Positions 39,301-63,335 of a stretch of DNA of 64,000 bases are shown piece after piece (the stretch's first letter is position 1; every line of letters begins with the position of its first letter). The notes beneath the pieces are model-generated. The model worked only from the letters and a program-made list of their open reading frames with translations, had not been told where the DNA came from and searched no databases. The translations under genes and the position numbers were made by a program. Source of the stretch: Brachycybe producta (taxonomy: Eukaryota; Arthropoda; Diplopoda; Playtdesmida; Andrognathidae); assembly GCA_036925085.1 (NCBI GenBank), contig JAUPFP010000115.1, positions 124,001 through 188,000 on the forward strand. Direction: 5' to 3'.

Positions 39301-42300
39301 AAAACTAAATATAGAAAGTGATGCCCAAACAAACACCAGTCTGCTTGACAATAAATACAAAAAATGCAATAAAATACAAAAATAAAAGAAATTTAAAAAG
39401 TAAATTCATTTTTTGTTAGAAAAGGTAATTAATTACAGTTACAAACACAATAGAATACAAAGTTTCAAATGTGATGTAGTGAATTGCTAATTACTTTAAA
39501 AAGTAATTTAATTACAGTAAATCATTACTTAGGGCCTACGGCAAATTCCTTCTCAACTGGTTATCAATGATGTTTTTAGTTTCATAGTTAGAAAACAAAA
39601 ATAGTTTAATATACAAAAACAAAAGGAATTTTAAAAATAATTATGTATTGCATTGTTATGTTTTGCACATAGTGTTTGAAATGTGATGTGGTAAATTGCT
39701 AATTACGCGAAAAAGTAATTTAATTACAGTATAGATAATTATTTTTGGTAAATTATTTCTCTACGCAGGTTAATCATAATGTTTTTTTTTTAATTTCACA
39801 TTTTAATTTTTCTTGTAAGGAATTTCAACTCCAAGAATGGCTTCTGATGGCAGTGAACTTCCAAGTCCTCGTTTAGTCAGTTCTTCTTTAATTGCTGATG
39901 CTAATGTTCCCGACAACTTTAACACAAATATGATTATGGCTTTTGGACAATTTTTGGATCATGACCTGACCAGAACTGCTGTAAATAAAGGTATAATAAT
40001 TGAAAAAAACAAAACAATATTAACCAGTTTGTTAAATTGTGTACAAGTTTTTTTTTAAATAAACACATTTATATGCAAATATGTCTTGAAAATTAGTCTT
40101 TCAATATTATTATTAGTTTAGTTAAGTATGTTTTTATCTATTGAATATAAAAACAAGGTTCTTCAAATAAAAATCGTGAATTTTGAAGCACCACATTTAA
40201 CTGTAAAAGGTTTTTTGACCACAATCATTTTAAATGATTACAATCACTAACAACATTATGAATATACATTTAATAATATGTTATTATGTACTTGATATTT
40301 AAGATGTTTTTTGAACAGCTGATTTTCGAATTCTGTTTATTCTGCAGTTTCAGAAGAGCAACACTAAGATGAAATTGAAATTGTGTTAAAAACTAGAACT
40401 GGTAGCCTGATCAGTGATCACTTAATAGTATTTTATGTTGATTATCTTTCAAAATAAACTTTTTATTTGCAAAAAAGTGAAATTATCGTCTGCTATAAGC
40501 ATGGTCTATTTAAAGTGTGGTCACTTTTAAACTGACATAAAAAGCTTATTTTAAAAGATAACAACTTGAAAATACCCTTAAATGCATTGAGCTACCGTTC
40601 TAGTTTCTAAGGCAATTTCAAGTTTCTTTTTGGGCGTTTACACTTTAAAACTAGCTTACCAAATTATAATTGTATACATGTATAATTTTTATTTGCTACT
40701 TTTAATAATATTTTATAATACATTTTATTAGGGAAAAATAACACCGGGATTGCGTGTTGTCGTCGAGAAATGATCGAGAATCCGAGTCTTCGTCATCAGG
40801 AATGTTTGCCCATCAAAATACCTGCTAATGATCCTTTCTATGCCCAATTCAATCAATCGTGTATGGAGTTTGTTCGTTCTTTGTCATCACCTAGACCAGA
40901 TTGCACTTTTGGTATGTTTTCATTTTGAATAATTTAAAATACCGATATAGTTTTCATTTGTTTTTAAATTAAAAACAAATTTAAAAAAAAAGCTAGCTTG
41001 GCTTGCTCCAAGTAGGTCTAGTTGTTTTTTGTTTAGTATTGATCAGCTGCGGCTCTAATTACTCACTGGTTGAGTTGGCTACCACCGAAGCCAAGGTGGG
41101 GATCGAATTCCCATTTAAAGAAACACCGATGTTGCTGACTTTGAAAAAAATTTACACAAACTTTTTATTTTTTAACTTTAACTTTGCATCTTTACAAATC
41201 ACTTTTCGACTTTTTGCAAATCATCAAAACTGCCTTAATCTCTGGAAATTGTCACAACTCTCTTCTTCCGTCGGAGGTCACCTCACAGTCCTCATTTTAA
41301 CTCTTTTTCCAAGAGAGAGGCGACTATCACTCAGGGGCTTAGCCACAGGTTAAACTGACCAATGGTTGAACCTCAAGTGATTACATTTCCTTATTTGGAT
41401 GGACATTTTAGAGACTTTTCACTAAAATTGTCCTGATTGACAGCTGTTCTCAGAAATAGCTTTTAAAGTTCTGCCCACCCACCCTGCAGGGTCCCAAGGC
41501 CTGTAAGGTGACTCACACATGTGCAAGTAGAGTGCACATGTGTGGATGGTGTCACCTCCCCCCCCCCCCCACCACAGTTTGTTGGAGGCATGTCTTTAGG
41601 CCTCAGAGTTTATAACCCAGTCGCTCGACTATGCGTGCCAGGCGCAATATGCGTGCAATAAAACGAAACAAAAAACAATGCAAAAGTAAATATACTTTCT
41701 TCGCTTCGGGGTCTAGCAGATCAGTCTCACTTCCTTATGGTGATGGCGGCAATGGCACGGACGGCGGTGACAGTGGTGGTTTCTCCGCCTCTCTCTTCTG
41801 CTGACGCTCGTCCTCTTGGGCGTCGAGGTGGGCAACTGGCAACATCTCCCCCATTGGCACTGTGTATGTGCCGTGGGGTGTTCGGGCGGTGGCCTCAAAC
41901 TCACTTAGATAGCTATGCCATGTTGCCCTGGTTCTTGGTGCTCCACGTTGAGGGGTTCCCTGCTGACTCATGTTAATGTCACTCACTTGTTGATTCGATC
42001 TCCAAAGTCCTTTGTTGATGAATCCACGAGTTGCTGTCAACTGAACTGTCACTTTACTTTTAAATGGTGAACTACCTACACCTTCAAAACTCGCTGTATT
42101 TTGAAAAAAAAAACTTGTTAAGAATGAGTGAAAACCTTTCCCAAACTTCTGTAGATCAGCCAAAAATGAAGGTGTCACTTTCAAAAATTGAAGAACTCAA
42201 GAAGAAAATCAAAAACCCGATCAAAAACAAATAAAACTGAGGAGAGCATACAAACAATGCTCTCACAAAACAAAAGAAAAATGGTGACTGTTACAATAAT

Positions 42301-45300
42301 TATTAAGATCGTCCAGTAGTAGTGTCCCCCCCCCCTTGGACCGTGTTTATCTTTCTTATTTTTGACACCATCCCCACTCCTGGAGCTGATAATCGATGCC
42401 GAACAACATTATGAAACAAATATTAACTCTGCTAGAAACTAAAATTTTGCTAAAAATTTAGCTAGAATTTTGCTAAAAGAAATTTCATTGCGATTTCTTA
42501 TAAAATAAACTTTTCATGGCAATTTGATACAAAAAGATGCTGTAAAAAGTTTGTTTTAAAAGTAATCTTGTTTTATTTATTAAATTGGTTCGCCAGTAAA
42601 TTTAGAAAATTTACTGGTTGAAGCAACGTCTTTCGAAAAAAAAAATCGACTTTTAAGAAAAAAAAATCCAAAATTTCTTAAAGACTAGAATATCAGCTGA
42701 CTATGCTAAACGTATTTTTTATGATGAATTAAAAATAAACTTTTCGTGGAAATTTGAAAATCACTTAATTTACAAATTAATGTACAAAACCTATAAAAAA
42801 CTAATCGTTTTCAAAGTGCTATAAAATGTTTATTTTTAAAGATATGTTTTTTTTTTTGTAAAATGCCGACAAAAACCAATATACATTTTTTAAAATGTTT
42901 GCTAAATATTCAAAACACAATTTTTATTTATTAATTTGTTTCACTACCAGTGCGGTAGTAAATTTCCTAGAATAATTTAGAAAAGCGACTCACAGAAAAA
43001 ATTAAAATGTGTTGGAGACTAGAATAGCAATTGAATATGCTAAGCTAAAAGGCATTTCATTGCAATTTTTTTTTATAAAATAAGATTTTTATTCAAAATT
43101 AAAAAAAGTATTTTATAAAAGTATTTTTATGGCGATATATTTAAAAATAAGCTTTTCATGACAATATGAAAATCATTTTTTCTAGTAAAGATTGATGTAA
43201 AAAAAAATCTTAAAAACATATCACTTTCAAATTGCTATAAAAAGTTTATTTTAAAAGATATCGTCATAAAAATACTTTATCCGAACTGTCTCACTATTCT
43301 AGTTTGTAAAGAACTTTAACAATCTTTTTTATACTGATGTATATTTTAAAATGTTTTGTTGTTTTGTTCGCAGGTGCTCGTGAGCAAATGAATCAGATCA
43401 CGTCTTTTATTGACGCCTCAAATATGTACGGATCCACCAAAGATGAATCCAATGACCTGAGAACATTCCAAGCAGGTAAATATACCCAACACAATACCTT
43501 ATTTAATTAATTTTAATTGTTTATGTTATTTGTTTCATGATCGTCCAATTATGATACTTTCCAATGTTTTTGTACAGGATGTTTCAGAACCAATGCTCCA
43601 ATCTATTATCAAACTATAAAGAGGGGAAACAATTAAATGGTTTAAAATTGAATATCTAAAAAATTATAAAAACGACAAATTTAAAACTTCAGTTGATTGA
43701 TAGAAACATATCAAAATGTAATTAATTGTAAGAATAACTATAGAGTATAATTTACAAAGAACACATTTTTAATGAATTTTTTTTAAAAAAACTTAAGGTT
43801 TATTCTGTCATTCAGGAGCAAAATTAAAATAAACTAGAAACTGTTTTAGAAACTAGAAGAGTAGCAAAAAGTATTTTATGTTGATATCTTTCAAAATAAA
43901 CTTTCTATATATAAAAATTTAAAAAAAATATATTGACTGCTTAAAGTTGCGTCATTTTCAAACTCGAGTAAAAAGCTCATTTTGAAAGATATCAACAATG
44001 GAAATACTCTTTTAGTGATTAAGCTATCCTTCTAGTTTCTAAAACACATTAGATTCTCTTCATTTTGCACCTGAAAGACAAAATAATCAGAGTTTGAGAT
44101 GCAGTTACACTTTAAAACCACCTTAACAATTTGTTGTTAAGGTGGTTTTAAAGTGTAACTGCATCTCAAACTCTGATTATTTTGTCTTTCAGGTGCAAAA
44201 TGAAGAGAATCTAATGTGTTTTAGATTCAAAATGGTTCAAATTGTAATTTTTTTCTGATGGAAACCATTTTTTTTTAATATTATAAAATAATTTTATTAA
44301 TATTATAAAATAATTTTATTAATATTATAAAATAATATTATAAAATTCAGAATTTCTATAGCTTTTTTTTAAATAAATAACATTATATTTTATTTTTTGT
44401 ACAACTACGTTTTGATATGTTTTAACAACTACAGTAAGGTTTTAAATGTTTAACATTTATAGATTCTGAGATATTAAATTTTAAACAATAAACTATGTCA
44501 TCGAGTAAAGACTTTTTAATAGATTTGAGGTGTCGGTTGTGAGACGTACTGTATAAAAAGCTTTTCTTAAAAGTAATAAATATTGCAAAATGTGTTAATT
44601 AAATGTCCTAATGCACTTTCTAAAAAAAGCATTTTGTCATGTACATGTTTAATGTTTGTTGATTTATAGACACCTCATGATAAAATGTAAAGAACCTTAA
44701 ATATTATTAAGGTGTTAAGTGTACGTTATTTTAATCGACAATAATAACCAGTTTTATTCGGTAGTTTTACAAATACTGCGAGATTTTTTGGTTGTTGCAT
44801 TTCAGAGAACTTTATTTAAATTTATTGAAACCCATCATTGCTAAAAAGAAATTTTACATGGAATTAGCAACTTGTGAATAAATATAATTAAATTTTATTC
44901 AGGAAATACATTTCGATTATGCAGTATTTACTAGTCTAATTTAATGAAATATACATACATGTATATTATGAAAGTGTTAAATGTGTTTTTTTTTAAATAA
45001 TAACCAGTTTTCTTTTTTTGGTACTTCAAATATTTTGAAGCTGTAATTTCTTGGATGATGATTTCAGCTTTGAAGATTGTGGAAGTTAATTTTTCGATAA
45101 CTTTTATTTAAGTTTATTGAAGCATATTATTGGTTAAAATGGTCAATTTGAATCAAATTTAATCTGAAGTCAGTGTTGAAAAAAATTGTTTAAAAGTAAT
45201 AAAATTTATGTAATGACATTACTATTTCAAGTATTTAATAAATTATCACTATATTAGTTTTGAAATAGGTGCAAGTTGTAATTGTACTTTATTACATTTT

Positions 45301-48300
45301 TCATTTAAAAATACAGTTACTTTAAATTGCTTTTCAATTACTTTTGGAATTGCTTTTATTTTTATATTACTGTTAATTTAACTTAGAATATTTACAATGT
45401 ACTAGTGACTTTTTCCTGACTGCTGTTAAACAGTTTTGTTATATCACTGATTAATGAAATATTGACATTTTTGCAATTAATATGATTTGTAATTAAAGAC
45501 TAATTCAAATATTTTTTAAGAAAAATCAGTAATCGTTATCTATATAATTTTTTAAAATGTAGTAGGCCCTAATTGCATTTCTAATTAATTACAGTGAAAA
45601 CCGTATAACACAAAAACCGTTAACACAAAAAATCGGACAACACGAAAAAAAAATCGTTCGGTTCGGTTCCACTGACAAGCATAAAGATTTATTTCTTTTA
45701 ATATGGAATTTTTTTAGGTCCCTTTCATTACCTGTTAAACGGTTTCTAGTGTAGTTTTCTACACTGATGTAATAATTACTAATTGTATTAATTACTTTCA
45801 AAATTTATTTATTTCAACACTGATAGAAATAATAAAAATTCACTTTCAACAACTTCCAATAATCAAATTCACGAAATATTCGTTTATTAATTCATTATTT
45901 AAATAATAATAATAAATGTTGATTATTTCACAATTTATTTCTGTTTGATGATTTGTGTGAAAATATTTTTTTGAAAAGAAACACGTTTTTCTCATTATAT
46001 TCACTTAACACCATTTAAAAAAAAATATTATTATTATTATTAAAAGGTATTTTACTGATGCTGTGCATTTTTTCGTTTACTTTGATCTCTGAAATTTATT
46101 TTTAGGAAGATTGCAGGTTTCTCGTGTAAATGATGTCGACCTACTTCCCTTTGTTACTACTAAACCTGATTTTTGCAGCAAACCGGACCAAGGTCTTTTC
46201 TGCTTCAAGGCTGGTAAAATAAAGATTTTTCAGTATTATAATAATTTTTAACTTAAATTTTAATATTAATTTTTATTTTATTCATATTGTACGAAAAAAA
46301 AGTATTTTAATTAGAAATATTTTACACGAGAAAGAAAACAAAATCCTGGTTTTGCTTAAAGGTGCATTAAAGTGTAAATGCCCCTCTTGAACTCTGATTA
46401 TTCTGTCTTTTATGAACAACATTAACTTGCAAAAGAAACTTGAGCATGTTTTAGAAAGTTAGAAACTAGAAGGGTATCTCAATCACTTAAGTGTGATTTT
46501 ATTTTCATATCTTTCAAAATAAGTTTTTTTTTTATCAGTTTGAAAATAAACCAACATGCAACAGAAGATGCATAACAGACGATATTTTTAATTTTTGTCT
46601 ATAAAAAAAGTTTATTTTGAAAGATATCAACATGAAAACACTATTAAATGATTCAGCTACCGTTCTAGTTTCTAACACACTTTTAATTTCTTCTTTAGTG
46701 TAACGCTTGAAACGCAGAATACCCAGATTTCAAAATCCAGCTGTTTGTAAACATATCGGGAGCTAAATTAAATCCTTTGAGCTCACAATGGAGACTTAAG
46801 TCCTATTCTCACGAATCACAAAATGTTTCAAATGTTATTTCAATATTTTTCTTGTATTTTTTTTTTTGATAGGTGATACGAGAGTGAATGAACAAATTAG
46901 TTTAACGATTATTCACACGGTGTGGTTACGAGAACACAATCGGATTGCTCGTGAATTGGGTGCCATTAACCCTACTTGGACAGATGAAAATATTTTTCAA
47001 GAAACACGAAGGATTGTAGGAGCAATGTTTCAGCACATTGTGTACAATGAATTTTTACCGGTTTTGTTGGGTAACATTTTTTCAATGTTTTTTCATTTTT
47101 TCAATGTTTGCGAAAGTTACTTGCAACCAAAAAGAAGAATCTCAAATTCGGAATTATACCAAGAGAATCTAAAAGAAATAACTTCAAAGTTTGTTATTAA
47201 CTGGAATAGTAATTAAATTTTTATTTTTAAAAAATATTTTCATAATAGAAATATTTAAAAATAAACATTTTTATCACAGTTTTCAAATAATAAAAATGTT
47301 TTAGTGTATTGTAAATGATTTTTGAATTATCAGTTGATTCTTGGAATTTATAGTGACATAAATAGTGTACTTTTGTCATTGTCATCAACTAATCTAGTTT
47401 CTAACAAATTTGAATATTTGTCTGAGGTCATAACTGAAGAATTTTCAAAATTAAAAAATGTCCTAAAGGCCACAAATAAAATTGATTTAAGGTGGTTTTA
47501 AAGTGTGAACGCCTTTTGAACTCTGGTTATTTTTTTCTTTCAGGGGCAAATTTAGGGGAAACTTTAAAGTATTTTGGAAACTAGAAGATGGATATTCTCA
47601 TGTTGATTTCTTTTAGAATATGTTTTTTTTTATTTTAGTTTGAAAATGTCAGAACTTTAAGCAGACGAATATTTTTTTTTAAATTTTTGTGAATAGACTA
47701 TTTATTTTGTAAGATATCAATCAACATGAAAATATTATTAACGGATTCAGTTGCCTTCTAGTTTCTAACACATTTTCAATTTATTTTGAGTGTTTGTTGC
47801 TCTTGAAACGCAGAGACTCAGAGTAACCATAGTTCGAAAATCATAAAACATCTTAATGACATTATTTTTAAAAAATGAAATTTACAGGACGCAGAACAAT
47901 GCAGTCTGCTCAACTGTTGCTTTTAAGAGAGGGGTATACATTTGATTACGATGCAACCATTAATCCTGGAGTGACCAACGAATTCGCCACTGCTGCATAC
48001 AGATTTGGACACACATTGATACCAGTAATTATTGATTTTACTTTCAAGTGTCATTCAGTCAGTGACCAAATGTGTAAATTGCATGGATGGTTTTTTTTAT
48101 TAAAGGGAAATTTCATGATGTTTGGTTCTCAAGGGCAGTCCGAAGAAGTGCCTCTAAGAGACGTATTCAATAAACCGTTTCATTTGTTCAAAACTGGTGG
48201 AATGGACAGTACGCTTCGAGGATTGTGCACGCAAAGAAGCCAGCAGTTTGACAGCTTCATAACACAAGAAGTAATCAACATATTCTGCAGATTCTGCATG

Positions 48301-50054
48301 CTGACATGGATGCCTGTGGCAGAAGGACTTGACTCACAAGAGTCATAAAGTCCACTTCACACGGGGCACACCTTTTTGCCACTTTGTGTCACCACGCAGT
48401 GGTAGACGCGGTCTGCTACACACAAAGGGTGGAGGTGTCTCGTGTGAAGCTCTCATAGGAATCAGTGGCCTGCTAAAAACAAACATTTTTTGTGTCGACA
48501 CAAAGTGTCTTGTGTGAGGCGGCTCTGCATTTATTTATTGTTTTATTGATTAAGGTCACGCAACATTTATTTCAACGTACTAGGCCTTTTGGTTTGGACT
48601 TGGTGGCCATCAACTTACAGAGAGGTAGAGACCACGGATTGCCCGGTTACAACCAGTGGCGGCGATTTTGTGGCCTCTCGATTTTTAGCACCTTTGATGA
48701 ACTTCGAAGTGAAATTAATCCGCAGTTTGTACAGACACTGCAGCAGCTTTATAGGTATACCACATTTACAATATATTTTATAATGAATATACGTGTATAC
48801 TAATTAACGATGTTTTATGAAAAGCTGATTTTTGAATTCTGGTTATTCTGCGTGTCAAAAAAAGAAACACTAAAGAGAAATTTAAAAATGTGTTAGAAAC
48901 TATAGAACAGCAGCGGGATCACTGAATAGTGTTTTCATGTCGATATCTTTTAAAATACCTGGTAAACGTTTTATTGACGAACATTAAAAAAAAATAGCAT
49001 CCGCTTAAATTTAGGCAATTTTCAAACACAAAAAAGCGTATTTAAAATATATCAACATTAAAATGAACCTTTTAGTTTCTAAAACACTTTCAAGTTTCTC
49101 TTAATTTTGCTTATGAAAAACAGAATGACCAGTTTTCGAGTGATTTTATTTACACTTGAAACGAACTTAATGTTTTCGAATAGGTCAGTAGATGATATTG
49201 ATGTGTTCGTGGCTGGCGTTGCTGAAAAACCTCTTCCTGGAGCAAAATTGGGCAGTACTTTTGCTTGTATTGTATCTGAACAGTTTAAGAGGTTAAAAAA
49301 GGGAGATCGATTCTGGTATGAAAATGGGTTCAACTCGCAATTTACACCAGGTAAGTCATCATATTTTATCGCAATTTGGAACATTTTTAATTTTTTCTAT
49401 TAATTTTTTTTTTTGGTATAGAACAATTGCAAGAAATCAGAAAAGTTACATTTGCTCGTTTAATTTGCGACAACAGTGATGGAATCGATCAAATTCAACA
49501 ATTTGTCTTTTTTGCACCTGCTCGAGGGTATGGTTGATACAATTAAAGTGGCTTAACAGTGATTTCTAGATGTATAAAGTCGACGTGAACTTTTTTAGAA
49601 GCAATATTAAGAGAAAAGTTAAAAGTGTGTTAGAAACTAGACTAGTAGGTTATTATACTGAAAGTATTTTTATGGCGAAATCTTTTAAGAATAAAATTTT
49701 TATGGCCATTTGGTAATTACATTTTTTACCACTTACCATGTAAAATATTGTACTGTATTTTCAAACTGCTATAAAACTTTTATTTTTTAAAAATTTTGCC
49801 ATCAAAATAATTTTACAATATATGCATCTGTTATTTTTTAATTAGAATTTTTCGGAAATTCTTCATGAAAATTTACATTTTGAAATAATTTATGTCACTT
49901 TGTACGAAAAAGTTAAATTACAAAATTTAGTGAAGTTGTTTCATACTTTAAAATTACATTCTGTTTGTTTATTTTCAGCAATTCCTTAATGCCTTGCCAA
50001 GGAACTTTCATTCCGAGAATGAATTTGGCATTATGGACTGGCGAACCCGTGTAG
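26223..50054 (+). CDS. Secreted animal haem peroxidase with N-terminal CLIP-like domain (15 exons)
   Basis: Exons: 26223-26604, 30907-31023, 32750-33044, 38492-38706, 39820-39990, 40732-40911, 43374-43475, 46106-46213, 46873-47070, 47888-48024, 48106-48270, 48555-48754, 49184-49350, 49422-49527, 49979-50054. They join in phase to 872 residues. Residues 8-21 are hydrophobic (signal peptide). RQRR at 42-45 resembles a proprotein-convertase site. Six cysteines at 51, 61, 67, 82, 92 and 93 have CLIP-domain spacing. About 168-265 is a Gln/Pro-rich linker. From about 280 the myeloperoxidase-type domain is complete: distal His384 with haem-ester Asp383 ([10 protein letters not shown]), calcium loop TSFIDAS (463-469), catalytic Arg527 and Glu530 (GDTRVNEQ), proximal His631 (YRFGHTLIP), and the [14 protein letters not shown] motif. 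It should use hydrogen peroxide to oxidise phenols or halides outside the cell, or to crosslink protein. The nearest family is chorion peroxidase/peroxinectin-like; the exact role is unknown. A non-coding first exon is possible because ttacaag just before the ATG could be an acceptor. Confidence 0.93.
26351..26511 (+). other. CLIP-like six-cysteine domain in peroxidase exon 1
   Basis: This part of exon 1 encodes residues 44-96. The cysteine order is C51, C61, C67, C82, then the adjacent pair C92-C93, which is the CLIP arrangement known from arthropod clip-domain serine proteases and their homologues. It follows directly after the basic RQRR stretch. Seen directly: cysteine spacing and the final CC. 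Inferred: a disulfide-bonded regulatory or protein-binding module. A profile search would confirm or reject the domain name. Confidence 0.6.
26709..27018. mobile_element. Tc1/mariner-like MITE flanked by TA, in peroxidase intron 1
   Basis: CAGAGGGTGTCCATAAAGCT at the left mirrors CTTTATAGACACCTTG at the right, with TA on both outer sides. 310 bases, non-coding. End sequence and TA duplication are typical of Tc1/mariner-derived elements. Confidence 0.7.
27050..27410. mobile_element. Remnant of the same family as the element at 43,575
   Basis: Shares AAATTGAATATCTCAGAAA, an AACATATCAAAATG block and a mirrored TTTTGACATGTTTTTTAACA block with the 43,575-44,551 element. Ends are unclear. Confidence 0.45.
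29505..29564. repeat. (AT)n microsatellite, about 60 bases
   Basis: Pure alternating AT run in peroxidase intron 1. Confidence 0.95.
29835..30038. mobile_element. Inverted-repeat element carrying a (G)17 tract, peroxidase intron 1
   Basis: TACATACGGTCAATTCTGGC at the left mirrors GACAAGCCAAAACTGACCGT at the right. A run of 17 G lies just inside the left arm (29,875-29,891). Non-coding. Confidence 0.55.
30550..30692. mobile_element. Family G short inverted element, peroxidase intron 1
   Basis: AAAACCGTTTAACAAGAAAT on the left mirrors CATGTTAAACGTTTTCAC on the right. A similar unit with AAAACCGTATAACAC lies at 45,592-45,735. Confidence 0.5.
31225..31410. mobile_element. Family A fragment, peroxidase intron 2
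   Basis: It carries AACTAGAAGAGTAGCTCA, CACATTTCAAGTTTCTTTTA and a terminal GAAAACCATCTTAA, matching the family A arms, with the centre deleted. Confidence 0.5.
32876..33044 (+). repeat. CAA-rich coding repeat (polyglutamine linker) in peroxidase exon 3
   Basis: Exon 3 is dominated by CAA and CAG codons in short runs of up to six Gln broken by Leu, Pro, Glu and Asn. The earlier half of the exon is Pro/Ser/Thr-rich. The stretch is in frame with both neighbouring exons and ends at a GTAAGA donor. It is a low-complexity spacer between the CLIP-like domain and the catalytic domain, and probably varies in length between individuals. Confidence 0.85.
33330..33379. repeat. (TAA)n microsatellite
   Basis: About 16 units of ATA/TAA in peroxidase intron 3, immediately followed by an ACAGAGTGTTCC end-like motif. 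Confidence 0.95.
34318..34558. mobile_element. Inverted-repeat MITE with GGCTGGATCAC ends
   Basis: GGCTGGATCACGCTTA at the left mirrors TAAGCATGTGTGATCCAGCC at the right; 241 bases. The short open frame inside starts in the left terminal repeat and is not a gene. Possibly related to family F. Confidence 0.7.
34898..35459. mobile_element. 562-base mariner-type foldback element flanked by TA
   Basis: CAGTGTGTCTCAAAAACGTA at the left mirrors the right end ACAGTTTTTGAGACACACTC. TA lies on both flanks. The arms continue far inward (TTACAATAAAGATTA appears on both sides, inverted), so the element is close to a full palindrome with no transposase frame. Confidence 0.8.
36114..36315. mobile_element. 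Family A MITE, internally deleted, peroxidase intron 3
   Basis: The left arm has TTAAGGTGATTTTAAACTC, TGTGTTTTAGAAACTGGAAG and GGTAGCTCAATCAG. The right end has GCTGTTCATAAACCATCTTA. The hairpin centre is missing. Confidence 0.65.
36453..36808. mobile_element. Family F MITE, copy 2, interrupted by another element
   Basis: The left end AAGGAAGGATCACACACGCT runs to the inner mirror TTCAGCATGTGTGATGCTC, and a second end GTATGATTCTTCCCT closes it at 36,808. A distinct inverted-repeat element occupies about 36,605-36,790. Confidence 0.6.
36605..36790. mobile_element. Inverted-repeat element nested in family F
   Basis: CATTACAGAAAAATGACGCC on the left arm mirrors TTTTGACGTCATTTTTCTGT on the right. 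The outer arms (AGCTTATGCACTGCATAC and GTATGCGGTGAATTAGCTGC) also pair. It is richer in GC than its surroundings. Confidence 0.65.
36928..37117. mobile_element. Family B MITE, copy 4, peroxidase intron 3
   Basis: CAACGAAACTTAGCACTTCC with CAACTTGAACACTCTGAACA at the left, and GAGGGTTCAAGTTGAAGTTC with TTTTCTTCTTAAATTTTGG at the right. Confidence 0.65.
37860..38205. mobile_element. Family A MITE, near full length, peroxidase intron 3
   Basis: The left arm GTTTAGAAACTAGAAGGGTA-GCTCAATCAC is mirrored by GTTACCTCTTCTAGTTTCTA on the right. The outer right end reads CATTTACACTTCAAAACCCA. The loop region carries the family's GCAGGTGATATTTTTTTTAA motif. Confidence 0.7.
39290..39775. repeat. Imperfect direct duplication of about 210 bases, peroxidase intron 4
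   Basis: AATGTGATGTAGTGAATTGC then TAATTTAATTACAGTA occurs near 39,467 and again, diverged, near 39,677. The second copy ends about 50 bases before exon 5. TAATTAC-rich sequence of the same style occurs near 1,340-1,820 and 45,240-45,600. Confidence 0.5.
40305..40665. mobile_element. Family A MITE, peroxidase intron 5
   Basis: The left end GAACAGCTGATTTTCGAATT and GTTAAAAACTAGAACTGGTA pair with GCTACCGTTCTAGTTTCTAA and TTACACTTTAAAACTAGCTT at the right. It ends about 65 bases before exon 6. Confidence 0.65.
41020..41120 (+). repeat. tRNA-derived SINE-like head, peroxidase intron 6
   Basis: TGGTTGAGTTGG resembles an A box and GGGATCGAATTCCC a B box of a tRNA-type internal promoter, about 33 bases apart. 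No intact cloverleaf is evident. GC content jumps here. Likely the 5' head of a SINE; the tail is not defined. Confidence 0.4.
41120..42360. mobile_element. GC-rich probable mobile-element remnant, peroxidase intron 6
   Basis: The segment is far more GC-rich than its surroundings and includes two C-homopolymer runs and a GTGACTCACACATGTGCA / TGCACATGTGTGGATGG inverted pair at 41,508-41,556. A GCGTGCAATAAAACG stretch near 41,650 resembles a retroelement R region. The longest frame (149 codons, minus strand, 41,735-42,184) has no recognised domain. The class is unresolved. Confidence 0.4.
42420..43325. mobile_element. Series of degraded family A-like arms (A' variant), peroxidase intron 6
   Basis: Three diverged units share GACTAGAATA-CAGCT, AAATAAACTTTTC-TGGCAATTTGA and GCTATAAA-AGTTTATTTTAAAAG. 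The last one closes with CTATTCTAGTTTGTAAAG about 50 bases before exon 7. They resemble family A without its outer ends. Confidence 0.45.
43788..44228. mobile_element. Family A MITE with an extra head-to-head terminal arm
   Basis: A standard hairpin (CTAGAAGAGTAGC / GCTATCCTTCTAGTTTCTAA, AAGATATCAAC centre) ends in CTTTAAAACCACCTTAA. It is followed at once by an inverted second end starting TTAAGGTGGTTTTAAAGTGT. The terminal 92 bases are perfectly mirrored. Confidence 0.75.
44038..44225. repeat. Perfect 92-base inverted repeat, 4-base loop
   Basis: Arms 44,038-44,129 and 44,134-44,225 are exact reverse complements, with TTTG at the centre (44,130-44,133). Both arms are the terminal part of family A. 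Confidence 0.9.
45592..45735. mobile_element. Family G short element, peroxidase intron 7
   Basis: CAGTGAAAACCGTATAACAC with the right-side mirror ACCTGTTAAACGGTTTC. The interior repeats AACACAAAAA and AACACGAAAA. Confidence 0.45.
46355..46755. mobile_element. Family A MITE, peroxidase intron 8
   Basis: AAAGTGTAAATGCCCCTCTT, AGAAACTAGAAGGGTATCTC and the centre AGACGATATTTTTAATTTTT pair with GTTTATTTTGAAAGATATCA, GCTACCGTTCTAGTTTCTAA and a CAGCTGTTTGTAAAC right end. It ends about 115 bases before exon 9. Confidence 0.75.
47185..47415. mobile_element. Family A' fragment, peroxidase intron 9
   Basis: CTTCAAAGTTTGTTATTAAC with ATATTTAAAAATAAACATTT at the left, and ACTAATCTAGTTTCTAACAA at the right, match degraded A' arms. 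Confidence 0.4.
47488..47857. mobile_element. Family A MITE ending 30 bases before peroxidase exon 10
   Basis: TTAAGGTGGTTTTAAAGTGT begins the left arm, AAACTAGAAGATGG pairs with GTTGCCTTCTAGTTTCTAAC, and the right end is CATAAAACATCTTAATG. The exon 10 acceptor follows at 47,887. Confidence 0.75.
48025..48105 (+). other. Short in-frame intron 10 of the peroxidase gene (81 bases, no stop)
   Basis: The segment begins GTAATT and ends in a T-rich tract plus TTAAAG. It is exactly 27 codons long and has no stop in the reading frame. With it removed, the protein reads HTLIP then [11 protein letters not shown], the expected peroxidase continuation. With it kept, 27 extra residues fall right after the proximal-histidine motif. 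The same gene has a 71-base intron (49351-49421), so this size is normal here. Removal is favoured by family conservation; transcript evidence would settle it. Confidence 0.75.
48352..48530. mobile_element. GC-rich hairpin element in peroxidase intron 11
   Basis: CTTCACACGGGGCACACCT pairs with AGGTGTCTCGTGTGAAG (to about 48,452). A third related end, GACACAAAGTGTCTTGTGTG, follows at 48,497-48,517. It fills most of the 284-base intron and ends about 25 bases before exon 12. Confidence 0.6.
48810..49172. mobile_element. Family A MITE ending about 11 bases before peroxidase exon 13
   Basis: AAAAGCTGATTTTTGAATTC and TGTGTTAGAAACTATAGAAC at the left pair with CCTTTTAGTTTCTAAAACAC, TTCAAGTTTCTCTTAATTTT and a decayed right terminus. 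The acceptor TCGAATAG is immediately adjacent (49,183). Confidence 0.7.
49545..49815. mobile_element. Family A' copy, peroxidase intron 14
   Basis: GTGTGTTAGAAACTAGACTA, TTATGGCGAAATCTTTTAAG and AAACTGCTATAAAACTTTTA follow the A' arm order; the right terminus is not clear. Confidence 0.5.
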
Positions 50055-52893: not shown

Positions 52894-55800
52894 ATGTTGT
52901 TTTCGTCTTATGTACTCTGCTTAGTTTTAGCATTTTTGCTGGTATGTATGGGTATTCAATTGTTTCGGGAAGTAACCCTTTCTGCTCTAAAGCCAAATAT
53001 TATATTCATAGTTGCTGACGACCTCGGTAAGTCTTGATTATAATTATTATTATTTCAGATATTTATCATGTAATTTTTTTTTAAATTATAGACATCAATC
53101 GTAATAGATTATATTGAACATTGAAAAGATAAACTATAATGAAATGAAATTAACTACTTAGTGAAAGTGGCAATAAAATAAAATAAATAAAATGTATTAT
53201 ATATTATTATTAGAGCTCGGATCAATCTTCAATAAAAATACACTAGTTAGAGGCTAGAAGTTAGAACTGTAGTTGCCAACTTATTGTAACTAGACATCTA
53301 GCCTTTAACCAGCCTTGTTGATTAGAAAAAGCATAATTGCAGTTATTCAGACTTATTCTAATGATGATGATGATGATGATGATGATTACTACTGTAGTAC
53401 TTCACAATTGGCACTTGGCTTGTGGCTTGGCTTGTTGGAAATCGAAATTCATGATATAAAATGATACAGTATTTTAATTAGAAAAAACAATATTAATTAA
53501 TATTTATAAACTGCTGGTATAGTTAGAAAACCTGAATAAGATTATTATTGTAAAACGTCATAGCTCACAAATTATAATGACCATATTGGAAATTTTGTAG
53601 GTTGGAATGATGTTGGATGGCACAATCACGAAATGCATACTCCAAATATGAATAAATTGGCATCTGAAGGCATCATATTGAATCATTCCTACATGCAGTA
53701 TATGTGTACACCGTAAGAATGAAAGTTTATACGAAATTTAAAATAATATTTAATTAGCAAAAACATTTGTTTGAGAGCTGCTTTACCCAGTACATGCCCA
53801 TGGGAATAAGAGATTTACATAAAGATCATAGACTAGATAGTTTTTACAAACGTGGGCTTTGTGAGGCTGTGGGCTGGGTTTATACAATGTGGGTTTCTAT
53901 GTTGATATTGGGTAGCTTTGATTGAAAAAAAAACTATATTGATTAATATTAAAGTTTAATAGAAATTAGAACCCAACATTAAATGTGTATCATACATATT
54001 GTAATATGTGCAATATTGTGTGCATATTGTTAAAAAAATTAATTTTAATATACTTCTTTTTTATATAGTTCAAGATCTGCATTTATGACTGGATATTATC
54101 CGTTTCGATCAGGACTACAGGTAAAAAAAATAAATACTTGATTTATAATAAATTTAAATGTTATCCTTTTTAGCATGGTGTAATATGGCGTTTCAGTGCT
54201 GGTGGATTGCCTTTACAATTCCCTTTGTTACCACAAAAATTAAAAGAACTTGGATATGATGCACATATTGTTGGAAAGTAAGATATGTTTATTATTATTT
54301 TTGCCCTTTAAAAGTTTTTTTCTTAATTTTGCTTTAAAGTGTTTTAGAAACTAGAAGGGTAGCTCAGTCACTTAGGATATTTTCCTGTTGATATCTTTTA
54401 AAGTAATCTTTTTGTATGAGTTTGAAAATGTTCCAACTTTCAGCAGACGATATTTTATAAACATTTTCTATAAAAAGTTTATTTTGAAAGATATCACTTT
54501 CTTTTTAATGTTGTTTCTGAAACATAAAATTACGAAGTGTCCAAACAAATCATCTGTTCGTGAAACACATTGAAATCAAATAAACTTGATTTCAGATGGC
54601 ATTTAGGACACTGTCACTTAAACTACACTCCAACATACCGAGGATTTGATTCTTTTCTTGGATTGTATACAGGTCTATCTGACTATTATACACATTCATT
54701 GCCAGGTAAATATTCTTTTTGTGAATTTTTACGTTATTGAAGACATTATTTTAAAAAAACATTTGCAGGAGAACCAACAGCTCACGATTTCCATAATGGC
54801 ACCGAGAAATTAACAAGTTTTGACAATATTCACTCTTCAGTAAATAAACAAAGTGGATTCAAGCCATATATTCATAATAATAAATTTTATTTTAATATTT
54901 CCATTGCTTTTAGATTCCTTTTCGACAACAGGTTGAACAAATTCTTTCTTCGCACTCTCACTCGAAACCTTTGTTTTTATATTTACCTTTTCATCTACCA
55001 CATTCACCATTACAGGTAGTAGTTAATAACAGTAGTTTAGTAATTATTTTTTTAATTCATTACACCTGTGAATTCTTTTGCATAAATTATCGTTATGATG
55101 TTTTTTATATAGAAGGTTTCAGAAGAATATTTATCTCACTATCAAAATGTTGCAAATGAGAACAGAAGAATATACAGTGGTAATTAATAGTTTGAATGAA
55201 ATATTATCCTGATTTTTATGTCCTGTTTCCAGTTGACGAAATGATGGTGAAAAGACGTTTTAAAATGAGAAAAGCACAAATATAATCGCCCAAAAATTTG
55301 GGCCAAAATAAAAGTTGAATTTTTAATTGACCAAACATAATACAGCAATATGTACAGCATAATAAAACATACCATTGTGGTGAATAGGAGGGCCACGTCG
55401 AAATGCATTAGCTAATTTGACCAGAGAAAAGTGCCATTTTTCTCCAGTTGAAATTTTCACAGTTTAATCATTTTTACCAAAGTGGAAATAGAACATAATG
55501 AAATAATTATTGACATTTGTAATCTTTTTTTTTGAAAGGTATGGTGTCAGCTTTAGACGACGATATTGGAAGAGTATTGGAATTGTTAAGACAGTACAAA
55601 TTTTATGACAATTCCATTATTGTCTTCACATCCGATGTAAGTTTAGAAATCTGCACACCATATGATATTCTACTTATTTATATGTATATTTATTTATATC
55701 TGTTGCATTTGCTACTGCAGAATGGAGGAGAATTATATTTTGGTGGAAATAACTTTCCACTTCGTGGTAACAAAAACACAATGTTTGAAGGTGGTAGTAG

Positions 55801-57036
55801 AGCAGTTGGATTCATTCATAGTGCATTACTTCCAAAGTCTGGATTTATCTATGATGGGTAGAAATTTGAAAAATAAATCATACACTTTTATGCCCTTTAA
55901 TGGCAAAGTGGTGTAAGTCATTTTTTTTTATCAAAATCTGAATAACGGTGCAATTACATTTTATTAAGTGCACCTAATAAAAGTAAGGGTTAGTAAGTCA
56001 TGACACTATTGCGTTCAACAGAAAAACAAGAATGTTCTTAGATAATTCATATGCAAACTGGTGTTAAGGTGGCTGAATAGATATTTATTTTGTATTTGTC
56101 TCTCCGGTTGGTGCCACTGCATTGACTAATGCTAAGCTCCATGAAACCATTATTTGAAAACATGTCAAAAACGACTTACACCACTTTGCCCTTAAAGGAC
56201 TCATTTAATGTGGTAAATTTTGAAATTGTTTATTTTTTTTGTGCTAAGATTAATTCATGCTGTGGATTGGTTTGCAACATTTTTGTCATTGGCTGGTGGA
56301 AAACCAGGTTTGAAATCGTTTCCTTTGTGTCACCTTGGTACATTTATATTTAAAACAAACAAAATATATATTCAGATGTGGACATTGATGGAATGGATGT
56401 ATGGAACAATATTGTAAATAATGAACCATCACCTAGAACAGAATTCGTTTATAATATTGATAATTGGAATTTTACATCTCCAGCATTAAATGGTGCAATT
56501 AGGTGTGTTGTTATTTCGTATAATTTGTTTTTCATTTTTTTTTGGGTTTATTAATCTATTTTTAATTACTATGTAATTAAAGAGTAGGTGATTGGAAATT
56601 AATATTTGGTAAAACTGGTCTACCGGATGGTTGGTTTACACCGGAGAATTTTACAAATGAGTTGAATGTAATTGTAAATGAAGACTTTCTTAGAGATTGG
56701 CCAAATTCACCATATTTTCTACTTTTTAACATCAAAGGTTCAATTTATCGTTTCGATATGAAACAAAATTTAATACAGTAGTATACTAGAATAAAAGAGA
56801 TTTTTATTTAAATTTTAGATGATCCTTATGAACGAAATAACTTGGCTGATGCCATGCCAGCTAAAGTGGAGGAACTTCGGCAACGTGTAAACGAATATAC
56901 GAATAAATTAGTTTATCCTGTATGGGGTCCAAACGATGCTCGAGGACTCGAATCTGTAAAAGATGGATTTCTGAAACCAGATTACTGTGAACCTATTCAA
57001 CAAGTGACTCCCGTTCATACCCGAGTAGAAATATAA
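52894..57036 (+). CDS. Arylsulfatase B-like sulfatase, copy 1 (14 exons, complete)
   Basis: Exons: 52894-53026, 53601-53712, 54069-54120, 54174-54277, 54596-54705, 54769-54839, 54914-55015, 55116-55179 (or from 55113), 55539-55636, 55721-55857, 56249-56307, 56376-56502, 56583-56737, 56819-57036. They join to about 513 residues, close to human ARSB. Residues 5-22 form a signal peptide. Metal ligands Asp42 and Asp43 lie in IVADDLG. The formylglycine motif CTPSR (Cys80) is split by intron 2. KWHLGHC (134-140), the SPLQ histidine region (about 224), SDNGG (Asp282, Asn283) and RGNKNT (Lys300) complete the active site. The family removes sulfate from GalNAc-4-sulfate residues of glycosaminoglycans in lysosomes or secreted fluid; the substrate here is inferred from family only. 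A paralogue lies 3 kb downstream on the other strand. Confidence 0.93.
53214..53432. mobile_element. Family C MITE remnant, sulfatase copy 1 intron 1
   Basis: GAGCTCGGATCAATCTTCAA, GAGGCTAGAAGTTAG / ACATCTAGCCTTTAACCAGC and TTCACAATTGGCACTTGG match family C arms. A (GAT)8 microsatellite lies inside at about 53,358-53,383. Confidence 0.6.
54318..54575. mobile_element. Family A MITE, sulfatase copy 1 intron 4
   Basis: AGTGTTTTAGAAACTAGAAG with GGTAGCTCAGTCACTTAGG and the centre CAGCAGACGATATTTTATAA pair with TTTATTTTGAAAGATATCAC. The outer right arm is truncated. It ends about 20 bases before exon 5. Confidence 0.65.
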
Positions 57037-58605: not shown

Positions 58606-58620
58606 CATAGCAATTAGTGT

Positions 58621-58957
58621 TTTAAGGTGGTTTAATGAACAGCTGATTTTCCAACTCTTGATTCTTTTGTCTTTTAGGAACAAAATTAAGAAAAACTGGA
58701 AAATGTTTAAAAACTAGAAGGGTATTCAATAATGGTTGTTTTTCATGTTACTATCTTTCAAAATAAACAAAAAAAATATATAATGGTCAGTTTAAAATTG
58801 CGACATAAAAAAGCTTATTTTGAAAATGAAAATACCTTTAAGTGATTGCGCTGCACTTCTAGTTTCTAAAACACATTCAAGTTTCTGTTCATGTTTCTCG
58901 TAAAAGACAGAATAATCAGCGTTCAAGAGGCTTTTACATTTTAAAACTACCTTAAAT
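58621..58957. mobile_element. Family A MITE ending about 110 bases before the panC start
   Basis: TTTAAGGTGGTTTAATGAAC begins the element and TTTTAAAACTACCTTAAATT ends it. ACTAGAAGGGTATTCAATAA pairs with GCGCTGCACTTCTAGTTTCT. A host transposon this close shows that panC sits in host DNA; promoter influence is possible but unproven. Confidence 0.75.
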
Positions 58958-59065
58958 TAATTTTGACTAATTTTTGATTAATTATGTTTTATTTTAATTT
59001 AAACTTAATAGAATTTGTGTCGACTGACTGTTTGAAGCAGCGTCTTGTAAAGAAAAAAAACAACG

Positions 59066-59968
59066 ATGAAAATTGTAAAAAGTGTATCAGTTCTTCGTGA
59101 AATAATTTTGAAGTTTAAAACATCAGCAATTCGTTTGGGTGAAAGTGCAGGTATTGTTGGTTTTATACCAACTATGGGTTATTTGCACGATGGCCACGAA
59201 AGTTTAATGCGAACTGCTAGAAATAAGTGTGATTTTGTTGTGGCAAGTATTTTTGTTAATCCGATTCAGTTTAACTCTCTCGAAGATCTCGATGTTTATC
59301 CGAGAGATTCAGATCGTGATCTTAAACTGGCGAAACAGTGTGGTGTCGATGTTGTATTTATGCCAGAAGTGGCCGAGATGTATCCTCGACCTGTGCTGAC
59401 CAACGTATCTGTGGCCAACATCACCGCCATCATGTGTGGCGCCACTCGACCTGGACACTTTGACGGAGTCTCCACTGTGGTCGCAAAGTTGTTCAACATT
59501 GTCCAACCAGATTATGCTTATTTTGGTATGAAAGATGCTCAGCAGGTTGCAGTCATCGAGCAGATGGTGTTTGATCTGAATATGAATGTGAACATTGTTC
59601 GGTGTCCGACGGTACGAGAAAGAGATAATTTGGCAATGAGTTCGAGAAATGTCCGTTTGACTGACGAGGAACGTCGTCAGGCGGTTGTTTTATCGCAGGC
59701 ACTGGACACGGCATCAGTGGAAATGCAGAAACAGGGAATGACATTCGGACAACTTGCAACGTTAGTCGAGAAAAAGATCAGATCAATGCCACTTGCAATT
59801 CCAATCTATAATGAAATTGCTTATTATCCATCCATGAATAAAATTGATCGGGAATGTCTTATTGTGAATGCGGAACAGCCTTTTATTGTGGGACTTGCTG
59901 TCCAATTTGGCAAAACACGATTGATCGACAATCGTATTTTTGATTCAAAAGACTTTATACCAATTTAA
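59066..59968 (+). CDS. panC: Pantothenate synthetase (pantoate--beta-alanine ligase), intronless, bacterial type
   Basis: This is a single uninterrupted frame of 300 codons, slightly longer than typical bacterial PanC (about 280-290). It joins pantoate and beta-alanine using ATP, giving pantothenate (vitamin B5), AMP and diphosphate. All signature blocks are present: FIPTMGYLHDGH (33-44, with His41 and His44), FVNPIQF (63-69), DLDVYPRD (74-81), RPGHFDGVSTVV (128-139), YFGMKDAQQ (152-160, with Lys156 and Asp157) and LAMSSRN (189-195). No signal peptide is evident, so it is probably cytosolic. An in-frame TAA 18 bases before the ATG fixes the start unless there is an upstream intron. GC content rises above the surroundings (57% in one counted 60-base line, 33% in another). 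Neighbours are spliced animal genes and host MITEs, so horizontal acquisition from bacteria is inferred and contamination is unlikely. No panB or panE lies in the window. Confidence 0.95.
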   Translation: MKIVKSVSVLREIILKFKTSAIRLGESAGIVGFIPTMGYLHDGHESLMRTARNKCDFVVASIFVNPIQFNSLEDLDVYPRDSDRDLKLAKQCGVDVVFMPEVAEMYPRPVLTNVSVANITAIMCGATRPGHFDGVSTVVAKLFNIVQPDYAYFGMKDAQQVAVIEQMVFDLNMNVNIVRCPTVRERDNLAMSSRNVRLTDEERRQAVVLSQALDTASVEMQKQGMTFGQLATLVEKKIRSMPLAIPIYNEIAYYPSMNKIDRECLIVNAEQPFIVGLAVQFGKTRLIDNRIFDSKDFIPI

Positions 59969-59990
59969 GCAATAATAATTTTTATTACTG

Positions 59991-59996
59991 AATTCT
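59991..59996 (-). terminator. Candidate poly(A) signal for sulfatase copy 2, just past the panC stop
   Basis: TTTATT on the + strand reads AATAAA on the minus strand, about 160 bases past the stop of the minus-strand sulfatase and 23 bases beyond the panC stop. Confidence 0.4.
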
Positions 59997-60059
59997 TATT
60001 ATTAGCTAAATATATTAATTGAAATCTGGTTATTTAGTAAAATGCCATATAAGCCTTAT

Positions 60060-60100
60060 AATGATTCAGTTACATTTCTAGTTTCTAAAACACAGTTAAG
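60060..60100. mobile_element. Family A fragment just downstream of panC
   Basis: GTTACATTTCTAGTTTCTAA followed by AACACAGTTAAG is a right-arm remnant, about 95 bases after the panC stop. Confidence 0.4.
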
Positions 60101-60157
60101 CATGCTTGACCATTACTTTTTTTCTGCTCATAGCATAATAGTAGTAATTTAAATTGC

Positions 60158-63100
60158 TCATTTTGCAAGACACCAGCCTGGAGAATAAACACCGCCCCAA
60201 TGAGATGGAAATCCAGCAGGGTCAGAAGGTGGACGAAGTGGTTTGACGGCCAACTTACTATATTTTAAAAGAATTTGCCAAATTTCTTTGACTTTTTGAG
60301 GTACTTTTGTTGCAATGTTGAAATGTTCGCCAGGATCGTCTATTTTCAAAGCAAAAATAACAATGTATATAAATAATAATTATCGCTTTTTTATGGGTTG
60401 AAGCAATTAATTATTTATACTTTTTAGATTAAATAAATGTAAATTGTGTTTCGAAGATTTGGATTGGTTCAGAAACATTTCTTCGGAAACATTCTTGGGA
60501 GGAATCCATCCATCGGGAAATCCAGGATCACCTACAATCAATTTATAGTCTCCAACCCTGAATACCAAAAATAAAAATGAATGGCTGCGTTCAATTTCTA
60601 AGCGTCATATGAAGCGACTCAAAAAGCTTGCCATGTATGAGACGCCTTTCATGTCATAAATAGCTAATTTATTTTCTATAAATAATTTAGTTTTTAAAGT
60701 ATAAATGGGGCTCCTCAAATGCTGGTTATTCTGTTTTTCACATTTAATTTCTCCATTGTATTGCTTATGAAACACAGAGTAACCATTGTTTGAAAATCGA
60801 CTGTTCATGAAACATATACGCGGTAAATGAAATTTTGACGTAAAAACTGCTTCATACTTTGCAAGCTCTTCGAGGTGCTTCAAAAGAGCTTAGAAACTGA
60901 ACGTTTTCAATGCGTAAATTGTTTTACTTTATGACCCAATTTAAAAAAGGACACTTAATTAATTCTCACTTGAACTCTGTGAGCAGAGAGTTCCAACATA
61001 GAAAAAACTCCGATCAAAGAAATCAATATTATATCAGGTGCAAAATAAAGATAAACTTGAAAGTGCTTTAGAAACTCGAAGGGGGTAGCTGAATCACTTA
61101 AGAGTTCTTTTCATGTTAAAATCCTTTTAAAAATAAGCGTTTTATGTGATTTTCAAAACAATCCAGCTTTAAATTATTGTCTATAAGTTTATTCTGAAAG
61201 ATTTCAACGTGAAAATATTAAGTGATGTAGTTACCCTTCTAGTTTCTAAAATACATTCAAGTTTCTCTTAGTTTTTGCTCTTGAAAGACAGAATAACCAG
61301 AGTTGGAAAGTCAGCTCTTCATAAATCATCTTAAAATAAGATGTTTTTTTTTTGTTGGAACCCTATTATGAAGTTTCAAGGTAAACGTTCAAGTGTTAAG
61401 TTTCCTTCTTGAAGTTGTGTCTTTTTGTCTAAGCAATTAATTACCTAATGGCTGCATTGAAAAGATTTTGATAGTTATCTATGTTGTAAATGAATTCTGT
61501 TCTACGAGCAGTGACATTCTCACTGATTGTGTCCCATTGATTAATCCCATCAATGCTCGAGTCTTGTTTTGTTTAAAGAAACCAAATAAATTTTTAAAAA
61601 TCAATATCTGAAATTGAAATATATATTTTATAAGATATCACCTTTGTATTCTTTTCCATTGGCCACAGATAAAATAGTTGGATACCAATCTACAGCATGG
61701 ATTAAACTAAATATATGCTTAAGTTTGTAGCTAAGTTTTGCATAATCTTTATTGTTTTATTGTTTACTTTGTATTGATATATTTCCTTTTCTTCAGAAGT
61801 GGACTGTTGACAAATGCGACACCTCTTGTGCCACCTTCCCATAGAGTATTCTTATTTCCACGCAATGGAAAATTGTTACCACCATAAATTGTTTGACCAC
61901 CATTCTGATAAATGAAAAGTTAATTATTAGTTTTTCTTTTTTTTTTTTAATTTGTGTGAATTCATTTTCACATTTGAACTTTGAAACAGTTCTGTTTCCA
62001 TTACGTCTAAATAGGAGGTGAAAATGAATTTTGATTTGGTTAGATTTTTAAAGAATATCGATCTTGTGACTTTAAAAATCATTTTTACCTCCTATTTTGA
62101 CCTAAAAGAAAAACATGCCGTTAAAAGCTGAATTTTAAACGAGAATCCAAAGTTAATTTAGGATCAAATTCCAGCAAGTAACTTGTCACTTTGATCTCTT
62201 GAACCATCAGAGTAGAATTCCGACATACTGTAGAAAAAACCCTTTTAAATAGGTACTCAGTAAACAAGAGTTTTTTCATGTTGGAACTTTTTTCAGAATT
62301 TTCTATTTCAATTTCTAATACTAATAGCTTCATTATTGAACTTAAAACTGATAATCACTTGATTTTTTTTATTCCTTTTTAATGTTTTTAATAATATTTT
62401 TTTTGTTCATTTTTACCACTTATTTTGCCAAATTTAATTCCTGAATGAAATTGCTGAACAATTTCAAATATGTTTTTTTTCTTATTTTTATTTTGCAATT
62501 ATTTTTTAAATATATTAATATTATTAAGTATAGTTATATTAAATACATTAATTTTATAATTACTAATTATTTTTCATGCTAATTCATACAAAATAAAATT
62601 TAAAAATAAATCTATTTTTCTAAATAAATAAAAATCAGTCACTCTGCTTAATTGTATTAGTGGGAGTGAATTGATTCTTTGTCAAAACTACCTTAGGATT
62701 TTCGTTTTAAATAAAAAGGACACGATGTAATATCAAAAGACATGTTTACATCAGTTGTAAAAATGATGACGGTGTTGTTATAAAGATTTAATTCTTTTAG
62801 TGTGGCCGTAATGTTTCCAACTGCATCGTCTAAACATGTTACCATTGCTTAACATTGTCAAAAAAAATTGCATAAATTATCTTTTTGTTTCTTAATTATT
62901 CTTTAGGACAGAAAAAAACAACATTTTACCACTGAAGTTTCTTCTATTTTCATCATTTATGTGGCTGTACATATCGACATATACATCAGGAACCTTGAAT
63001 GAATAATAAAATGTGTGCAGCATATATCTATATCAACTTTGTGAAATTGCCAAAAATAATAACTAATAGTCAAAACTTTACTTGTAATGGTGCATGAACG

Positions 63101-63335
63101 GCTTGAAACGGTAGATATAAGAAAAATGGCTTTGATGTGTTATGAGATCTTATTATATTAATTGCTTCTTTTCTAAATAGAAGCTGAAAAACAATTAAAT
63201 GATTAGAAATTATGTGCCATTATTTTGAATCACGGAATTGGATTTTCCATCTTCGAAATCTTACAGTTGAGTATGTGCCATTGTAATTTTTTTCTGGTTT
63301 TGTATTGTTACGAAAGTCCAAGTATCCAGCTGACC
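60158..63335 (-). CDS. Arylsulfatase B-like sulfatase, copy 2 (partial; 5' exons off the right edge)
   Basis: Nine exons read right to left: 63335-63265, 63183-63082, 62993-62930, 62847-62750, 61904-61768, 61706-61642, 61562-61445, 60557-60421, 60339-60158. All junctions are in phase and end at a TGA. The frame contains [34 protein letters not shown] (metal-binding Asp and Asn), [13 protein letters not shown] (catalytic Lys), [15 protein letters not shown] and a [16 protein letters not shown] block, all typical of arylsulfatase B. Five internal exon lengths (71, 102, 64, 98, 137) equal those of copy 1, with identical phases, so the two are paralogues. The exons with the formylglycine cysteine and the first metal ligands are not in the window, so activity cannot be judged. 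The tail differs from copy 1 and ends in a Trp/Gly/Pro-rich segment. The gene converges on panC. Confidence 0.9.
60184..60189 (+). terminator. Candidate poly(A) signal for panC, inside the opposite gene's last exon
   Basis: This is the first AATAAA on the + strand after the panC stop, about 215 bases downstream. It lies within the terminal coding exon of the minus-strand sulfatase. AATAAT occurs earlier, near 59972, and could serve instead. Confidence 0.35.
60700..60815. mobile_element. Family A remnant, sulfatase copy 2 intron
   Basis: TCAAATGCTGGTTATTCTGT at the left and ACAGAGTAACCATTGTTTGA, CGACTGTTCATGAAAC at the right are the two family A ends with the hairpin middle deleted. Confidence 0.45.
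60955..61425. mobile_element. Family B MITE, copy 5, interrupted by family A
   Basis: The left half ends with GAGAGTTCCAACATAGAAAA. The right half resumes with TTTGTTGGAACCCTATTATG, then AAACGTTCAAGTGTTAAGTT and TTCCTTCTTGAAGTTG. The intervening 61,034-61,337 is a family A element. Confidence 0.65.
61034..61337. mobile_element. Family A MITE nested in family B, sulfatase copy 2 intron
   Basis: CTTGAAAGTGCTTTAGAAAC and GGGGGTAGCTGAATCACTTA pair with GTAGTTACCCTTCTAGTTTC and TTCAAGTTTCTCTTAG. The right end is CTTCATAAATCATCTTAA. The left terminus is shortened. Confidence 0.7.
61960..62105. mobile_element. Family D short element, sulfatase copy 2 intron
   Basis: AAATAGGAGGTGAAAATGAA pairs with AATCATTTTTACCTCCTATT at the right. 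A similar unit (TTCATTTTACCTCCTATATT) lies at 8,990-9,135. Confidence 0.5.

Follow-up and report, generated by a model that had tools for sequence, protein, structure and literature searches.

The window analysed here is a stretch of 64,000 bases (positions 124001-188000 of contig C115, in an assembly of 295.3 Mb and 442 contigs) that carries panC, a gene of the pantothenate synthetase family. A split sulfatase gene lies on either side of it, the two being convergent, and it is also flanked by copies of a host repeat. The features of the window referred to below are:

38463..49400, + strand: gene for an animal haem peroxidase, matched by PF03098 in six coding stretches (Pfam)
52894..57036, + strand: gene like N-acetylgalactosamine-4-sulfatase (PF00884, E 6.6e-36, joined pieces; inferred start, predicted splicing)
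58620..58965, no strand assigned: copy of a dispersed host repeat (MITE-like, family A), ending 100 bases before the panC ATG
59066..59968, + strand: panC, pantothenate synthetase gene, intronless, 300 codons (open reading frame, Pfam, NCBIfam, PDB, conserved columns)
60030..60100, no strand assigned: fragment of the MITE-like family A repeat (76% over 71 bases, E 9e-6), beginning 61 bases after the panC stop
60158..63219, - strand: convergent downstream sulfatase gene, many separate open stretches (PF00884, E 1.1e-15, joined pieces)

The panC reading frame runs from an ATG to a TAA through 300 amino acids with zero interruptions, so that both the 300 uninterrupted codons and the lack of an intron reported in the preliminary description are borne out by a single frame. 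Across 20 mononucleotide shuffles of the window, no frame stayed open for more than 154 codons, and it is the family match that excludes a chance origin. This match extends over the whole length of the family and lies above the curated cut-off: the protein aligns with PF02569 over residues 3-290 (E 7.2e-98, Pfam) and scores 290.6 bits against the NCBIfam equivalog TIGR00018 (curated cut-off 212.75). It also matches 21 distinct PDB sequences named pantothenate synthetase (best E 1.6e-67), and its predicted structure, modelled from 39 of the 81 sequences, has a mean pLDDT of 95.2. By family, the predicted product is a pantothenate synthetase.

A pattern scan of genome contigs confirmed at least 586 relatives, the best 80 of which were kept for the tree. 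Of the 39 columns that are fully invariant in these 80 bacterial proteins (the best 80 of at least 586), the window protein keeps 38, and of the 23 that are 95-99% conserved it keeps 22. The motifs HxGH, FVNPxQF, KDAQQ and SSRN, which we take to be PanC motifs with their presumed roles, all retain their conserved residues. Altogether 60 of 62 near-invariant positions (those conserved in at least 95% of the same 80 rows, the best of at least 586) are kept, the exceptions being V34I and G188N. This count is on the low side: the protein ranks 10th lowest among the 81 rows, for which the median is full retention. By simple arithmetic (2 changes in 62 sites), it limits unconstrained evolution of panC to approximately 0.1 substitution per site.

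Both sulfatase genes consist of many separate open stretches, in agreement with the split neighbours described earlier, for which exon counts of 9-15 each are only roughly supported. The upstream gene ends in a stop codon at 57034-57036 and has a best PDB match of E 5.9e-72; the downstream gene has its stop codon at 60158-60160 on the minus strand, and its outer 5' bound is approximate. The sulfatase stretches were picked by eye and then joined, and the PF00884 cut-off was passed only when they were joined; taken singly, three of four were without a Pfam match and one fell below the cut-off. Family A was matched at 17 merged places in the window, one of them being the query copy itself, and 20 shuffled queries gave 0 matches. 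It flanks panC on both sides as previously noted, at distances of 100 and 61 bases rather than about 110 and about 95.

Several further observations concern the same surroundings. The 3' ends of panC and the downstream sulfatase gene converge in 59969-60189. The first plus-strand AATAAA after panC lies at 60184, inside the open stretch with the final coding segment of the sulfatase gene on the other strand, and a minus-strand AATAAA lies at 59981, just past the panC stop; the panC and sulfatase transcripts may therefore overlap. Upstream of panC, positions 58355-58600 are richer in G+C and contain repeated GTCGTAAGT-like motifs, possibly marking another small transposable element, and no inverted repeat was reported there. 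The window yielded no Rfam family at the gathering threshold and no tRNA gene, and a cysteine-rich stretch near 26214-26600 had no Pfam match.

The origin of panC was addressed with a tree confined to bacterial rows (the best 80 of at least 586) plus the window protein. In this tree the protein falls in a 28-row set, otherwise made up of Bacillota, at 100/99, and within it groups with 15 Paenibacillaceae rows at 91/94. The closest identity among these best 80 of at least 586 is 56% over tree columns and 57% in the best segment. In AU tests, holding the 27 Bacilli together without the host protein was 29.3 log units worse (p 0.128), and holding the 15 Paenibacillus-group rows together without it gave p 0.494. 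Neither of these placements is rejected, so that a donor from Bacillota is considered likely, and a donor from the family Paenibacillaceae less sure. The protein search and phylogeny proposed earlier thus returned a Bacillota grouping, drawn from bacterial rows only and qualified by the AU value of 0.128. Viral contigs scanned with PanC gave no match. The joint transfer of a panB-panC-panD operon was also considered and rejected for the DNA beside panC: searched at E 1, the window showed nothing similar to panB and panD of the Paenibacillus loci L001 and L006, the identity of which had been verified, and the L001 panC used as a control did match.

The base composition of panC was compared with its surroundings. 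Its G+C content is 41% vs 29% for the window, distributed over the three codon positions as 0.528, 0.346 and 0.359; a rough sample of host exons (1806 bases, which may include some intron) gave 0.460, 0.389 and 0.314, and the third positions of 14 Paenibacillaceae genes among the matches listed ranged from 0.304 to 0.700. The composition of panC may have shifted towards that of the host, or it may have started low. In codon use, panC is slightly nearer to the host sample (0.086 per codon) than to Paenibacillus (-0.017). CpG is undepleted in panC (1.10, compared with 0.59 for the whole window and 0.77 for the sampled host exons), which speaks for a more recent arrival or for constraint on the coding sequence.

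A rival account is that panC reached the animal sequence through contamination by bacterial DNA or through chimeric assembly; the intronless frame, the elevated G+C content and the undepleted CpG all lean that way. Set against them are the host repeats no more than 100 bases away on both sides and the fact that none of the 80 loci retained, the best of at least 586, is more than 57% identical even in its best segment. Third-position G+C in panC is, moreover, close to that of the rough host exon sample. When 2199 open reading frames from the 80 panC loci (the best of at least 586) were compared with the window, 140 matches were obtained at E 1e-4, all of them on panC and none elsewhere. Repeats, split neighbours and the assembly itself place panC in the host chromosome, and the gene is single-copy in its own 295.3 Mb assembly (one profile match, one DNA match). 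ApbA and KARI_C, which all 14 prokaryotic genomes used as controls contain, had no match in the assembly, which argues against prokaryotic contigs, although a reduced symbiont could lack both. The six COX1 matches in the assembly (on C442, with nuclear copies on C1 and C17) all contain in-frame TGA, as expected for mitochondrial DNA and its nuclear copies, and no COX1 free of TGA was found in the assembly. Contamination is accordingly rejected as very unlikely, and we give it hardly any weight. A recently dead or dying copy, in which disabling changes have still to accumulate, is also highly improbable: two near-invariant positions are altered and expression is presumed, but 60 of 62 such columns are kept, and the end branch of 0.87 is neither the shortest nor the longest at its fork, where three single bacterial rows have 0.55, 1.0 and 1.08. 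That panC was acquired horizontally from bacteria and has been retained intact, as the preliminary description proposed, is well supported by the likely position among Bacillota in the tree of bacterial rows, the embedding in host repeats and between split genes, the single copy and the strong conservation. The gene is probably functional, judging by conservation only.

A gene for the first step of the pathway is present in the same assembly on another contig, C21 (3.9 Mb), which holds all four panB matches, three of them above the cut-off:

C21:2980167-2981976 (L086:3668-5477): panB, ketopantoate hydroxymethyltransferase, five predicted exons (profile matches, predicted splicing)

The predicted gene model comprises 342 codons, with four in-frame GT-AG introns of 79, 72, 556 and 74 bases; its first exon and start codon are least certain. 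The protein scores 310.6 bits against TIGR00222, for which the cut-off is 207.55; the aligned part starts at residue 45, and the best PDB match has E 4.6e-71. Repeats common to the window flank panB on both sides. Separately, positions 57580-57860 of the window are 88% identical to L086:2-288, upstream of panB, so that panC and panB both have a further host repeat in their vicinity. The N-terminal extension carries a net charge of +6 with one acidic residue in 41, and its helix moment does not stand out, being equalled or exceeded in 996 of 2000 shuffles; mitochondrial targeting is only suggested by this basic N-terminus. PanB keeps 44 of 51 near-invariant columns among 57 bacterial rows, below the level seen in PanC, and two of the seven lost columns are invariant in all 57.

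A panB relative was present in 66 of the 80 panC loci (the best of at least 586), of which 57 passed the filters, 23 loci being left out; the resulting tree is based on a biased sample, its 57 rows, all bacterial, coming from loci chosen for panC. Within it, a starred set (100/99) is made up of 27 rows from Bacillota and excludes the host PanB, which joins three Rhizobiaceae at only 87/79. Placing the host protein among 16 Paenibacillaceae-type rows was 14.1 log units worse but is not rejected (AU p 0.195), and placing it beside all 27 Bacillota was 0.9 log units better than the free tree (p 0.546). Since the latter tree is as good as the free one, the case for different donors is weakened, and separate origins of panB and panC are a possibility only.

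Animals normally depend on their food for vitamin B5. In its synthesis, PanB converts ketoisovalerate, obtained from valine breakdown, to ketopantoate, a reductase produces pantoate, and PanC joins pantoate and beta-alanine. The preliminary description held that the animal would need PanB- and PanE-like genes elsewhere unless it obtained pantoate from microbes or food or used the enzyme otherwise; of these genes, an intron-bearing panB was indeed found, but exon-by-exon searches of the assembly at E 0.001 gave no match to the ketopantoate reductase domains (ApbA, ApbA_C) or to the IlvC domain (KARI_C). By sequence, the first and last steps appear to be present in the assembly, and given these two genes the host may make vitamin B5 itself. 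The pantoate gap would be filled by some reductase or by pantoate from outside, an animal reductase seeming the likeliest filler and outside pantoate the next. We are fairly confident of a mechanism in which the animal acquired panC horizontally, probably from Bacillota and most like Paenibacillaceae, and retained it by purifying selection. PanC would most likely work together with the PanB encoded on C21, which would turn ketoisovalerate derived from valine into ketopantoate. Pantoate would then be produced by a host reductase of neither the PanE nor the IlvC family (or be supplied by food or microbes), and PanC would use ATP to ligate it to beta-alanine. We infer that panC is expressed and its product active, that the middle step takes place, and that the animal gains vitamin B5 from it.

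Other accounts of the pathway accept the acquisition and differ in what surrounds it. PanC could work without the host PanB by ligating pantoate from food or gut microbes, for which the missing PanE and IlvC domains provide an argument, as does the precedent of Heterodera schachtii, for which the available part of the report annotates just the final step (PMC9582021); a panB that looks complete stands against this account, which we consider doubtful. Also rather unlikely, as a single package, is a pathway from two donors, in which an older, intron-bearing and perhaps mitochondrial PanB would be linked by an ordinary animal reductase to a younger, intronless and cytosolic PanC. Ketoisovalerate is made in mitochondria, and if this arrangement were true, the animal could live with hardly any vitamin B5 in its diet, or with none. 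A different question is whether the host panB and panC descend from the same old acquisitions published for spider mites, which would make this a known event in a further relative. This bears on the identity of the host, for which contig C442 (15,359 bases) was taken as the mitochondrial genome; it is readable with the invertebrate mitochondrial code, and its gene names were assigned by eye from translations. On it, cox1 is followed by cox2 with no trnL between, nad4L, nad4 and nad5 lie on the cox1 strand, and nad1 lies on the opposite one. A trnL2 between cox1 and cox2 is a mark of insects and crustaceans, and the gene order therefore argues against such a host and, as far as this diagnostic value goes, admits a chelicerate. 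The host is probably an arthropod, and a chelicerate or a myriapod would be a guess. Most of the 25 mitochondrial tRNA calls are 58-68 bases long and the assembly measures 295.3 Mb, which seems unlike a spider mite. In favour of shared descent, tetranychid mites are reported to have both genes (PMC7738191, in the part available); on balance we regard it as improbable. The nuclear COX1 copies, near-complete and fragmentary, lie at C1:12697416-12698753 and on C17. The preferred reading remains a PanC probably derived from Bacillota that would work with the host PanB and either a reductase outside the PanE and IlvC families or outside pantoate.

Acquired panC, often together with panB, is a kind of gene already known in animals, to which one more lineage is added here. 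As far as the available parts of the reports go, the mite and whitefly precedents named in the preliminary description are correct, and nematodes and a mealybug are to be added. Horizontally acquired panC has been reported in the whitefly Bemisia tabaci (PMC5157087), and panB and panC of bacterial origin in the spider mite Tetranychus urticae and the eriophyoid mite Aculops lycopersici, a mealybug homologue being included in the tree of the same work (PMC7738191). The cyst nematode panC is reported to have been acquired horizontally (PMC9582021), as is the pantoate ligase of Longidorus elongatus (PMC5664137), and the honey bee record is considered more ambiguous by its own reporters (PMC9582021). 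Among the matches listed, in literature without most subscription journals, there was no Paenibacillus-like panC in an animal.

B. tabaci, too, has bacterial panB and panC in an animal chromosome and, in the available text, no panE (PMC5157087; PMC6167482). The host is a further lineage with panB and panC but without a recognisable reductase, as reported for the whitefly. In B. tabaci, however, the two genes are fused, contain introns and are allied to Pseudomonas (PMC5157087; PMC6167482), whereas those of the host are separate on two contigs, with an intronless, Bacillota-like panC. The whitefly may use IlvC supplied by its symbiont (PMC5157087, available part); here the assembly, which need not include symbionts, contains no IlvC domain. 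Like A. lycopersici and T. urticae, the host is apparently a non-insect arthropod with bacterial panB and panC (PMC7738191), and it differs from them in its 295.3 Mb assembly and in the four predicted introns of its panB. Since panB and panC have been gained repeatedly, a ketopantoate reductase may already exist in animal cells, an idea open to direct testing, and the host offers an animal for measuring vitamin B5 independence. An animal PanC of bacterial origin is likewise shared with H. schachtii, other plant-parasitic nematodes and L. elongatus, in which the donors are described as Actinobacteria-like or Burkholderia-like (PMC9582021; PMC5664137, available parts), in contrast to the Bacillota-like host gene. 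The H. schachtii PANC complements an E. coli panC mutant (PMC9582021). For cyst nematodes, host plants have been proposed to supply the earlier steps, and H. schachtii, in the available text, has the last step only, in a gene with several introns (PMC9582021); the present host has panB as well, and its panC is intronless.
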